The notes under the pieces are model-generated. The model ran no database searches, was not told the origin of the DNA, and saw only the letters and a program-made list of their open reading frames with translations. DNA of 64,000 bases from Flavobacterium faecale. Its GTDB lineage: Bacteria > Bacteroidota > Bacteroidia > Flavobacteriales > Flavobacteriaceae. The stretch is from the NCBI RefSeq assembly GCF_003076455.1, contig NZ_CP020918.1, forward strand, positions 434,001-498,000. Reading direction: 5' to 3'. Numbering within the stretch: position 1 is the stretch's first letter; each line of letters starts with the position of its first letter. This document shows positions 29,515 to 61,547 of this stretch, piece after piece. The translations under genes were made by a program, and so were the position numbers.

Positions 29515-29523
29515 TATCACACT

Positions 29524-29601
29524 TTAGGGGTGTCTACATTATCGTAGGCTGAGAATTACCCTCTGAACCTGATCTAGTTCATACTAGCGTAGGGAAAAGT
29601 A
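29524..29601 (+). promoter_or_regulatory. TPP riboswitch (THI element) of the thiamine operon
   Basis: The conserved THI blocks are present in order: AGGGGTG (29526), GGCTGAGA (29547), ACCCTCTGAACCTGATC (29558-29575) and AGCGTAGGGAA (29586-29596). An imperfect hairpin follows (GGTCCC around a T6 run with GGGTACC, about 29614-29633), a likely expression platform. It lies upstream of thiS and would shut the operon when thiamine pyrophosphate is plentiful. Confidence 0.95.
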
Positions 29602-29677
29602 AGATGACTTCCGTGGTCCCTTTTTTGGGTACCTTGTAGCCATTCCTAAAGTATAACTTATACAAAATTTTACAGGA

Positions 29678-35959: not shown

Positions 35960-36057
35960 CATTTGCTTCCACATCTACGAAGGATTACCTCCTTTTTTTC
36001 AAATAATTCATCACTATTACTCACAAATTCATTTAACACAACAATTATCCGCCCTAG

Positions 36058-36091
36058 TCTCCCCTCCTTCGGAGGGGTCGGGGGAGGATTT
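36058..36091 (-). repeat. Related GC-rich hairpin element, opposite orientation
   Basis: CCCCTCC-TTC-GGAGGGG followed by TCGGGGGAGG; on the minus strand this resembles the CCCCTAGCCCC-type repeats upstream. It ends 12 bases before the thiF start. Confidence 0.7.
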
Positions 36092-36103
36092 CCACACTAC
36101 AAC

Positions 36104-36814
36104 ATGAGCATTATACAAGATTTTTTACGATATAACCGTCAAACCATCCTACCCGAAATAGGTGACGAAGGCCAAGAAAAACTAAAAAAAGCGAAAGTCC
36201 TGGTGATTGGTGCGGGTGGTTTGGGCTGTCCTATTTTGCAATATTTGGCAACGGCTGGTGTGGGGACTATTGGTATTGTAGATTTTGATACGATTGAAAT
36301 TCATAATCTGCACCGTCAAATTCTTTATACCGAAGAACAATTGGGTCTACCTAAAGCTACTACAGCAAAGGCTACCGTTGAAAAACTAAATCCATTGATT
36401 GCTGTTTTGGCTTTTGAGGAAAAACTAACTTTCGAAAATGCTTCACAAATCATTAGCCAATTTGATTTTGTGGTTGATGGTTCTGATAATTTTAGTACAC
36501 GTTACTTAGTGAATGATACTTGTGTCGCATTGGGAAAAACATTAGTCTATGGAAGTATCCTTGGTTTCGAAGGGCAAATTGCGGTTTTTAACCATCAAGG
36601 GAGTAAAAATTTACGTGACTTATTTCCGGAACCACCAAATCCAAAGGATGTTCCAAATTGTAGTTTTAATGGCGTATTGGGTACTTTACCCGGAATGATT
36701 GGCACCATAATGGCACACGAAACCTTAAAATTAATTACTGGATTACCTACGTTGAGAAATGAACTGATTTTGTACAAAACGTTGGAATGGGGTTTTGTGA
36801 AACTGAATTTTTAA
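36104..36814 (+). CDS. thiF: ThiF/MoeB-type adenylyltransferase
   Basis: E1-like enzymes adenylate the C-terminal glycine of ThiS. From ATG 36104 the 236 residues begin RYNRQTILPEIGDEGQEKL, then the nucleotide loop VLVIGAGGLGCPILQYLA, GIVDFDTIEIHNLHRQILY and VVDGSDNFSTRYLVND. The usual zinc-binding cysteine pairs are only partly present (CSFNGVLG). An upstream extension of 47 codons would run through repeats and is rejected. Last of the thi genes; MoeB is excluded mainly by context. Confidence 0.88.
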   Translation: MSIIQDFLRYNRQTILPEIGDEGQEKLKKAKVLVIGAGGLGCPILQYLATAGVGTIGIVDFDTIEIHNLHRQILYTEEQLGLPKATTAKATVEKLNPLIAVLAFEEKLTFENASQIISQFDFVVDGSDNFSTRYLVNDTCVALGKTLVYGSILGFEGQIAVFNHQGSKNLRDLFPEPPNPKDVPNCSFNGVLGTLPGMIGTIMAHETLKLITGLPTLRNELILYKTLEWGFVKLNF

Positions 36815-36857
36815 TTTTTGTTATAAAGCAGCAAGACAAATTGGCTAACTTATAATT

Positions 36858-37291
36858 CCAGTAATCTCGACGTTTTGTCTCGCCGCAAGCGTGTCAGCAA
36901 AGGTACGCACCTATCTTGAGACGCTTTCAGCGAGACAAACTAGGTGGTTATGGTCTGGTTACTTATTATTTATTTGCTATTTGCAATATCAAACCCTGCT
37001 CGTGCTCACAACCTACATTACTGTAACCTCAACGTTTTGTCTCGCTGAAAGCGTCTCAGTAAAGGTGCTCGTCTATCGTGAAACGCTTTCAGCGTGACAA
37101 ACTAGGTGGTTATGGTATGGTTACTTATTATTAAATTGCTATTTGTAAAATAAAACTCTGCTCGTGCTCACAACCTACATTACTCTAACCTCAACGTTTT
37201 GTCTCGCTGAAAGCCTCTCAGCAAATGTGCTCATCTCTCGTGAGACGCTTTCAGCGTGACAAACTAGGTGGTTATGGTATGGTTACCTATT
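36858..37291 (+). repeat. Tandem array of a 162-bp unit with internal long inverted repeat (about 2.6 copies)
   Basis: Units begin at 36871, 37033 and 37195 (CGTTTTGTCTCG), exactly 162 bases apart with no insertions or deletions; units 1 and 2 are about 88% identical and unit 3 stops near 37291. Each unit has two 23-base arms: 36874-36896/36917-36939, 37036-37058/37079-37101 and 37198-37220/37241-37263. The arms start TTTGTCTCGC and end GCGAGACAAA (one base different in units 2 and 3), around a 20-base loop. Within each arm CGCT-GAA-AGCG can also fold by itself. The spacer ends CTCGTGCTCACAACCTAC. Confidence 0.95.
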
Positions 37292-37343
37292 TTTTTTTCA
37301 AATATATTAAAATATTCATACAAATTATTAATAAATAAGAATT

Positions 37344-37534
37344 CGGGATTTACTGCCCCAGATGGTAGTGGAAAGCCCGGACTGAGAAAACCTATTTTTT
37401 CTTGGCATAAAAGAGCGACCGTCCTCTCCCCCAGCCCCTCTCCAAAGGAAAGGGTAGCAAAAATGCTCCTTTTATGACAATAGAAAAAATGTTTTTGAAG
37501 GAGGACTTGCAACGGACAGCTGGATTGGCCCTGA
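37344..37534 (+). repeat. Copy B of the recurrent structured intergenic element
   Basis: GATGGTAGTGGAAAGCCC (37361-37378) and GGACTTGCAACGGACAGC (37503-37520) correspond to the left and right blocks of copy A. The part between them is enlarged and includes a CCTCTCCCCCAGCCCCTCTC-type repeat. Confidence 0.6.
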
Positions 37535-37634: not shown

Positions 37635-38276
37635 CTAAACTTCATTTCGAAGGATCTTCATGAAGTCATTTCGTTCTATTTCGCGGCAGCCTAAACTCTC
37701 GAGGTGTGGGTTGTAGACTTGGCAATCTAGTAGTTGGTATTGGTTGCTTTTTAGGTGATGGACTAAACTGATAAAAGCGACTTTGGATGCATTGGAAACT
37801 TTGGAAAACATACTTTCGCCACAAAAAACGTGTCCCATGTCTACACCATACAAACCGCCTACTAACTGATCGTTTTGCCAAACCTCAACGGACTGTGCGA
37901 TACCCAATTGATGCAAATTGCAATAGGCATCGATCATGTCGTTGGTGATCCAGGTTCCGTTTTGACCGTCGCGCTTGATGCGTTGGCAATTGGAAATAAC
38001 TCCTAGGAAATCCTGATTGAAGGTTACCTTGAATTCTTGACGGTTTAGGATATTTCGCATGCTTTTGGTTACTCGGACTTCGTCCAGAAATAAAACCATG
38101 CGCGGATTGGGCGACCACCAAATGATGGGATCACCTTGCTCAAACCACGGAAATATGCCGCTTTGATAGGCTAGTTGTAACCGTGCTGCCGACAAATCGC
38201 CACCGATCGCTACGATGCCGTCTCGATTGGCGGTGTTTACATTTGGAAATACTAGCGCATCTGATAATTGGACCAT
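37635..38276 (-). CDS. aat: Leucyl/phenylalanyl-tRNA--protein transferase
   Basis: Aat adds Leu or Phe to N-terminal Lys or Arg of proteins, marking them for ClpS/ClpAP degradation. The 213 residues include IVAIGGDLSAARLQLAYQSG, GIFPWFEQGDPIIWWSPNPR, GTWITNDMIDAYCNLH and GGLYGVDMGHVFCGESMFS. It starts 18 bases after the glutaminase stop on the same strand. Confidence 0.96.
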   Translation of the reverse strand: MVQLSDALVFPNVNTANRDGIVAIGGDLSAARLQLAYQSGIFPWFEQGDPIIWWSPNPRMVLFLDEVRVTKSMRNILNRQEFKVTFNQDFLGVISNCQRIKRDGQNGTWITNDMIDAYCNLHQLGIAQSVEVWQNDQLVGGLYGVDMGHVFCGESMFSKVSNASKVAFISLVHHLKSNQYQLLDCQVYNPHLESLGCREIERNDFMKILRNEV

Positions 38277-59582: not shown

Positions 59583-59604
59583 TTTGTTAGTTTTGCAGGG
59601 TTTT

Positions 59605-59691
59605 CTAGCCCCGATAGAAGCGTAAATCCTTGTGGGGGCAGGCTTTATGCCCCCACAAGATTGAAGCACATAGCGGGAAATAGCTCCTGAA
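59605..59691 (+). repeat. Copy D of the recurrent structured intergenic element
   Basis: CCCCGATAGAAGCGTAAATCC-type left block (59610-59629 region), a perfect 11-bp hairpin (TTGTGGGGGCA/TGCCCCCACAA) and the right block GATTGAAGCACATAGCGGG. It is the most compact of the four copies and lies in the upstream region of the PPTase gene. Confidence 0.75.
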
Positions 59692-61309: not shown

Positions 61310-61427
61310 GGGCGTGCCCCTCAGTTTGCGTAGTCGTTCCTCCTCGCAACTTCGGGTCGGGCTATTCGTTACAATCTTTTATTCCGCTATCGCTACATAA
61401 AAGGATTTTCACTTCTATCCCTCACGC
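61310..61427 (-). repeat. Copy C of the recurrent structured intergenic element (inverted)
   Basis: Read on the minus strand it gives GCGTGAGGGATAGAAGTG, AAAATCC, a loop with GTAGCGATAGCGGAATAAAA and GATTGTAACGAATAGCCCG. It ends in GGCACGCCC, the same order as copy A. It lies just after the ahcY terminator and accounts for most of the ahcY-DUF4861 gap; the rest of that gap (61428-61547) shows nothing clear. Confidence 0.75.
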
Positions 61428-61547
61428 AAAATTGCATTCCAAAAGAAACATTTATTTTAACATAATTCATTTTAAGATAAATAAATTAGAAAAAAATAGT
61501 ACCTATCTTTCGATTCCTAAATAATAACCAAAAGCAACAGACCACAT

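Follow-up and report, generated by a model that had tools for sequence, protein, structure and literature searches.

REPIN-like palindromes in tandem in a Flavobacterium genome, and a small GIY-YIG nuclease proposed as their partner

The window, a 64,000-nucleotide stretch of the Flavobacterium faecale genome (contig NZ_CP020918.1, positions 434,001 to 498,000), contains REPIN-like doublets that form a tandem cluster and have decayed. The basic unit is a 66-bp inverted doublet and not the 162-bp repeat; the tandem arrangement at 162 bp seems to have arisen secondarily, by duplication of the doublet together with its flanks. In other Flavobacterium genomes small GIY-YIG nuclease genes sit inside arrays of the window's element. 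We consider it probable that the window carries non-autonomous palindromes of a [CT]GTC-tagged set that are partnered by a small GIY-YIG nuclease encoded within its own palindrome clusters. This proposal draws on the anatomy and dispersal of the element, its association with nuclease genes, the match between palindrome type and nuclease subfamily, and insertion differences in Azospirillum and Shinella, and we infer that the nuclease acts in the recognition, the cleavage, and the copying or spreading of the palindromes. The nuclease would recognize the tag together with the hairpin and would nick or cut the palindrome when it is extruded or single-stranded; repair might then copy the doublet to a new site, or duplicate the doublet and its flanks in tandem.

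Anatomy, setting, and dispersal of the doublets

The direct repeat (36855..37294) comprises 2.7 copies with a period of exactly 162 bp and without indels, as the initial annotation had described: unit 1 (36855-37016), unit 2 (37017-37178), and a partial unit 3 (37179-37294) that matches over the first 116 bp. Units 1 and 2 are identical at 140 of 162 positions, so that the substitutions reported between them are real and amount to 14% rather than the estimated 12% or so; units 2 and 3 agree at 107 of 116 positions. Between units 1 and 2 the conservation of the doublet (55/66 identical positions) does not exceed that of the spacer (70/77, for unit positions 86-162). The 96 bp that separate doublets 1 and 2 (36940..37035) were duplicated along with the doublets; spacers are thus not unique to each unit, and the earlier judgement that the array is not a CRISPR holds.

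Each doublet is composed of two inverted halves with the tags outermost, and over its entire 66 bp it can fold into a single long hairpin or cruciform. Read from the outside inwards, a half consists of a TTTGTC tag, a stem of 4-5 bp closed by a 3-nt loop, and about 14 bases to the centre. This mini-hairpin, which had already been seen nested in the arms, reads ACGCT-GAA-AGCGT in its intact form. Since a half is a tag followed by a mini-hairpin, the array has the construction of REPINs clustered in tandem. The inverted repeat arms of 23 bases first ascribed to every unit are found in units 2 and 3 (91% complementary), which contain doublets 2 (37036..37101) and 3 (37198..37263); in unit 1, whose doublet (36874..36939) has mini-hairpin substitutions in its left half, the arms measure 31 nt and are 81% complementary. 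The three 66-nt doublets fold, under DNA parameters, with z-scores of -5.6, -7.6, and -6.9 relative to dinucleotide shuffles, and none of 200 shuffles equalled them, in keeping with the hairpin or cruciform initially proposed for each unit.

A covariance model of the half-element, which was built from 16 training rows that are themselves among its matches and whose E-values are rough, places six halves in the array, all of them training rows. The left halves of doublets 1 to 3 lie on the minus strand at 36872..36909 (E 1.8e-9), 37034..37071 (8.2e-12), and 37196..37233 (4.1e-11), and the right halves on the plus strand at 36904..36941 (5.9e-12), 37066..37103 (2.3e-10), and 37228..37265 (2.4e-11). 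The last two have a perfect 5-bp mini-hairpin and count as strict tagged hairpins; only these two of the six window halves pass the strict 5-bp stem rule, which fits decay. The covariation of the arms that the initial annotation suggested looking for is weak: among 22 window-like doublets, both sides have changed in one of ten mini-hairpin pairs and in two of 19 long-arm pairs.

The array sits between two convergent genes, which from their translation and open reading frame, respectively, we take to be a moeB/thiF/hesA-like gene (36104..36814, plus strand) and an aat-like gene (37635..38276, minus strand). All six reading frames of the array region contain stops and none is open throughout, which upholds the earlier argument against a protein. 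For the moeB-aat gap, 29 relatives were fetched; two with aat out of range and two that were not collinear were left out, and none of the 25 measurable gaps contains a strict tagged hairpin. No base-exact empty site for the array was found among 398 relatives, the closest of which has 84% moeB identity and differs in the downstream gap. A phage origin was considered and rejected, since one array unit has no match in 50,697 phage records.

Other repeats and RNA elements are present in the window. A C-rich repeat, different from the array, was recognized by eye on both sides of the region (36055-36090 and 37418-37455), and several repeat families may therefore have landed here. A sub-threshold match to the Flavo-1 RNA at 37351-37530 (plus strand; 29.1 bits against a cut-off of 42, stretched to 180 nt) looks like a Flavo-1 copy interrupted by another repeat, and matches above the cut-off occur at 59603-59684 (plus strand) and 61351-61432 (minus strand). 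A TPP riboswitch at 29516-29612 (plus strand) lies upstream of what we take to be a thiamine gene cluster.

The element is dispersed. In the 4.62-Mb genome of F. faecale the covariance model, with the best 150 candidates scored, finds 21 half-elements at E<=0.01, six of them in the array; together they make up five doublets (three in the window) and 11 singles. With at most one mismatch, a 15-base arm sequence recurs at 15 places, five of them in the array, and the reversed-pattern control at none. A search of the genome with unit 2 returns 18 rows, some of which represent one place on both strands, including two additional complete doublets and a number of single halves. Unit 2 also matches at least 29 of 299 genomes of the genus, F. 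faecale included, often over exactly the 66-bp core; this count is a lower bound because two candidates per genome were scored. The initial annotation had named absence from every other genome, along with a lack of transcript or structural conservation, as what would reduce the array to a local duplication; the absence did not come true. Its suggestion of a MITE-like replicating palindrome pointed in the right direction, with the 66-bp doublet and not the 162-bp repeat as the unit. The element is patchy across the genus, and in other genomes it also forms tandem arrays with other periods, for instance 86 bp in genome G047.

Small GIY-YIG genes amid tagged palindromes

The lead to the nuclease was a GIY-YIG reading frame within an array of the element in genome G200. 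In a second array, in genome G223 (L143), the GIY-YIG gene lies among CTCT halves and CGCT halves, the latter agreeing with those of the window in hairpin, tag, and outer AAACTAGGTGG. As tagged hairpins we counted [CT]GTC tags after which come a mismatch-free stem, 5 bp or longer, and a loop of 3-12 nt, and we searched 17 genomes (F. faecale and 16 picked as element carriers) for the Pfam domain PF01541. Of 124 matches 91 were analysed, the 33 left out being mostly long-frame genes plus five near-identical tandem copies in genome G139. Around 70 small GIY-YIG genes there are 108 tagged hairpins within 500 bp versus 10.6 in mononucleotide shuffles; 38 genes have one on any side, 24 on both sides, and 32 none within this distance. 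The 70 are not all independent, since they include broken frames and genes that share a locus. The 21 long-frame genes, which from frame length we presume to be of the UvrC/exonuclease type, have a single tagged hairpin within 500 bp versus 2.05 in shuffles, and none has them on both sides. In the REP-group subfamily, tagged hairpins accompany all 18 of its genes among the 70, 14 of them on both sides. The subfamily resembling 'MIEYTEGIYNFYVY' bears the palindrome type of the window.

A wider set was assembled from relatives of nine small GIY-YIG proteins, searched in one genome for each of 84,980 species; the queries were picked partly from loci whose palindromes were already known. Among the best 80 of 311 related loci, all from Flavobacteriales and at least six of them already counted in the 17 genomes, 77 have tagged hairpins within 500 bp and 54 have them on both sides (56 with other gene ends), with 288 hairpins in total versus 14.1 in shuffles. 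Hairpin density at these loci is 5.32 per kb in the first 250 bp and drops to 0.16 past 1250 bp; it is 0-0.61 per kb at 21 UvrC/exonuclease, 30 moeB (that of F. faecale included), and 33 Y1_Tnp loci. When TGTC tags are counted without first requiring pairing, and the two common loop classes are considered, a hairpin follows 210 of 431 tags within 300 bp of the gene, versus 28 of 477 beyond 800 bp and 2 of 542 at the moeB loci, again with that of F. faecale. The 210 hairpins comprise 18 stem/loop types, and this variety of self-complementary stems after one tag is better evidence than the covariation among doublets. We also examined 20 loci in 15 genomes, ten drawn from the eleven closest moeB relatives and five chosen as element carriers; 18 of these loci have tagged hairpins, including nine of the 11 loci that were not in the 17-genome set.

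Hairpin type follows nuclease subfamily. Proteins of the EGIY type are accompanied by short-loop hairpins in 30 cases and lack a hairpin in one; for the EGYH type the counts are 42 with long-loop hairpins and two without, and five proteins missed by the motif rule divide into four with long-loop and one with short-loop hairpins. On the protein tree, which rests on 105 columns and leaves 40 of 77 inner branches open, the loop class changes once among 77 labelled rows. With three unlabelled rows added as a third state there are four changes, versus a mean of 27.4 in shuffles, none of which (0/200) was as low. The deep split in loop class is one event, and the test on stem type therefore weighs more: six types in 71 rows require six changes, versus a mean of 29.3 and a minimum of 24 in 200 within-class shuffles.

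The genome of F. faecale has no EGIY-type gene (best match 38% identity). Lacking the matching nuclease subtype, its window copies are probably orphaned relics. In a scan of 15 genomes, which are a non-random sample searched with a model built on one stem type, nine match the half-element, one of them weakly. Of the eight that match clearly, four (G223, G200, G139, and G117) also encode an EGIY-type protein and four (G412, G271, G231, and G047) do not, which suggests that the repeat can outlive the gene. Genome G180 has an EGIY-type gene with ATTCC palindromes and no match to the ACGCT-based model.

Small GIY-YIG genes of a different group lie in or beside tRNA clusters (Met, Asn, Phe, Pro, and others; L164, L168, L169, L182, L187, L189, and L197), and were set aside for that reason. 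At three of these loci, in F. faecale (L164, L168, and L169), tRNA genes, or pieces resembling them, form part of the repeats, and L187 (G139:C1:1849500-1854200) holds seven tandem GIY-YIG matches at 374-bp spacing with near-equal scores. Another small GIY-YIG gene of F. faecale (L163, near C1:1802485) is flanked by copies of a palindrome that includes GAGCTTGTCGAAG and is a further candidate for a nuclease-palindrome pair.

The association extends to other phyla. A search of plasmid proteins for small GIY-YIG proteins gave 20 records, of which ten were read. Under the strict rule, tagged hairpins flank the gene on both sides at six of the ten loci (Planktothrix, Spirosoma, Neorhizobium, two in Shinella, and Azospirillum) and on one side at two (Aeromonas, and Sinorhizobium, where the hairpin looks like chance); there are none at the two remaining loci, from S. 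meliloti and R. tumorigenes. At the two Sinorhizobium loci (the S. meliloti one and the one just named) a flanking 9-bp hairpin, CCTC-like in its tag and ending in a CCA tail, was recognized by eye; it falls outside the rule of the script. In Azospirillum lipoferum 4B a doublet, the GIY-YIG gene, and a second doublet lie between sufB and sufC, which are about 617 bp apart. Eleven other Azospirillum records cover just 63-66% of the 4B query, in two pieces; in three of these the sufB-sufC gap measures approximately 92, 130, and 88 bp and contains no GIY-YIG gene. Two Shinella relatives have no GIY-YIG gene at the corresponding place. The Azospirillum and Shinella loci differ from those of the relatives by an insertion.

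The nuclease and competing explanations

The proposed partner is a UPF0213/Slx1-like GIY-YIG protein of roughly 95-110 amino acids. Six of six proteins match the Pfam GIY-YIG family with 57-65 bits against a gathering threshold of 22.6. Seven residues (Y14, Y25, G27, R35, H39, E73, and N92) are invariant in 35 sequences. These are residues of catalytic type; judged by the spacing in I-TevI of 11 (Tyr-Tyr), 10 (Tyr-Arg), and 4 (Arg-His), Y14, Y25, R35, and H39 fit a catalytic set. The AlphaFold model has a mean pLDDT of 91. The sequence profile matches the UPF0213 structures 1zg2 and 1ywl, and a Foldseek search with the model returns 1zg2 at E 2e-4 as the only match below 0.001, followed by Slx1 entries whose E-values start at 0.02 and whose probabilities are near 1. 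Slx1 is a nuclease of branched DNA, and by analogy an Slx1-like cutting of branched DNA would suit hairpins and cruciforms.

The same resemblance to Slx1 would also suit a nuclease that restrains or resolves palindromes, by removing cruciforms or limiting instability, and does not spread them, with the linkage reflecting co-selection. The nuclease gene lies mostly at a conserved locus (a flanking protein matches in 133 of 167 pairs at >=85% identity). However, restraint alone leaves unexplained both the subfamily-specific palindrome clusters and the doublet-gene-doublet insertion in Azospirillum, and we regard it as unlikely, if still the most serious of the alternatives.

The palindromes could instead be ordinary REPINs mobilized by a RAYT (HuH/Y1) that has been lost or lies elsewhere, with the GIY-YIG genes as bystanders. 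Their architecture is that of REPINs, and in Pseudomonas fluorescens, too, clustered REPINs can be repeated in tandem along with their flanks (Bertels and Rainey 2011, PMC3116915). F. faecale itself has two RAYT-like Y1_Tnp genes (L021 and L022), and a 26-amino-acid remnant resembling the C-terminus of L022 (L004 1273-1350, near C1:3645467) is found some 170 bp away from one doublet of the window family. Tagged hairpins are mildly enriched around Y1_Tnp genes: some tagged hairpin is present within 500 bp at 8 of 33 Y1_Tnp loci (three short ones of 36 were dropped), two of them with hairpins on both sides, versus 2 of 30 moeB loci with one on any side. However, each of the two RAYT-like genes is flanked by its own inverted repeat, unlike the window element, and the window core motif is present at none of the six Y1_Tnp matches of F. 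faecale, two of which are pieces of one gene. Nor does the hairpin with its GACAA motif adjoin the gene at these six or at 30 other Y1_Tnp loci, taken among the matches listed for 18 element-bearing genomes; the one match is far from the gene. The tag, moreover, is not GTAG, and bystander GIY-YIG genes would leave the match between stem type and subfamily unexplained. For the flanking repeats and the missing motif we set the RAYT aside as partner, the remnant speaking otherwise, and think its involvement improbable.

A bidirectional terminator duplicated locally between the two convergent genes, with no wider meaning, is highly improbable: a T run is present, starting 22 bases past the unit 3 arm, but none follows the arms of units 1 and 2, and copies exist elsewhere in F. 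faecale and in other genomes. A riboswitch or structured RNA gene present in triplicate has equally little to recommend it, since, for all the strength of the fold under DNA parameters, no Rfam family reaches its cut-off in the array, as the earlier rejection of known riboswitches anticipated, and palindromes fold alike on both strands.

Partnership with a small GIY-YIG nuclease, our preferred reading, would if correct give a function to small proteins annotated just as 'GIY-YIG nuclease family protein'. Nature would then also offer a case of coevolution between a structure-specific nuclease and tiny palindromes. Against this reading weigh the element-bearing genomes that lack an EGIY-type gene, the small genes and plasmid loci with no tagged hairpin nearby or with one on a single side, the weak covariation, the few window halves with a full stem, the RAYT-like remnant and the enrichment at Y1_Tnp loci, and the mostly fixed position of the nuclease gene.

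The palindromes among known repeat systems

The doublets resemble the REPINs of P. fluorescens (PMC3116915) in being inverted pairs that form one hairpin, in occurring also as singles, in forming ordered clusters with flanks, and in that a cognate gene adjoins a cluster. In the window element the inverted REP pair with its spacer folds as a hairpin, and doublets and singles are dispersed. Unlike in those REPINs, the outer tag is TTTGTC and not GTAG, and the adjoining gene encodes a GIY-YIG nuclease and not a RAYT; at none of the six F. faecale and 30 other Y1_Tnp loci does this REP flank a cognate RAYT, the remnant being on record.

The nuclease resembles UPF0213 proteins in sequence and fold (1zg2, 1ywl) and Slx1 in fold (4xlg). 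The open-access journal literature, judged by titles and the openings of abstracts, yielded no description of a UPF0213/Slx1-like protein as the partner of a palindromic repeat, and its full texts none that joins GIY-YIG with repetitive extragenic palindromic, dRS3, or REP sequences. Joint mentions of RAYT and GIY-YIG (e.g., PMC9465073) appear incidental.

A second group for comparison is the CGTC REPs, which Di Nocera et al. (2013, PMC3733652) record from five phyla, with Bacteroidetes listed, and which include Neisseria dRS3 and Rickettsia RPE-4/RPE-6. That survey describes them as apparently without a dedicated transposase and leaves their spread open. We propose the small GIY-YIG nuclease as the partner of the CGTC REPs; with a candidate enzyme and a match to palindromes at the level of subfamilies, their spread becomes directly testable. 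More broadly, we lean slightly towards two independent REP economies, one in which GTAG palindromes are handled by HuH RAYTs, and one in which [CT]GTC palindromes would be handled, through cut-and-copy repair, by co-diversifying Slx1-like GIY-YIG nucleases in Bacteroidota, Alphaproteobacteria, Cyanobacteria, and perhaps Gammaproteobacteria, the last on the basis of one one-sided locus. The second economy would be a class of mobile palindromes entirely without a transposase.

The window element shares with the CGTC REPs of PMC3733652 the unpaired tag (CGTC, with TGTC or CCTC accepted), the inverted dimers, and an A-T first stem pair in intact halves. The tags of its doublets point outward. Unlike the CGTC REPs described there, with stems of 8-9 bp and loops of 4-5 nt, the window halves have stems of 4-5 bp and 3-nt loops, and none has a CCA-like tail, most continuing with CTC or a TTC-like sequence. 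The elements of Azospirillum, Shinella, and Neorhizobium, which have a CGTC tag (TGTC in one copy), stems of 8-9 bp, loops of 4-5 nt, and a CCA tail, fit the CGTC REPs of that survey in stem, loop, and tail alike.
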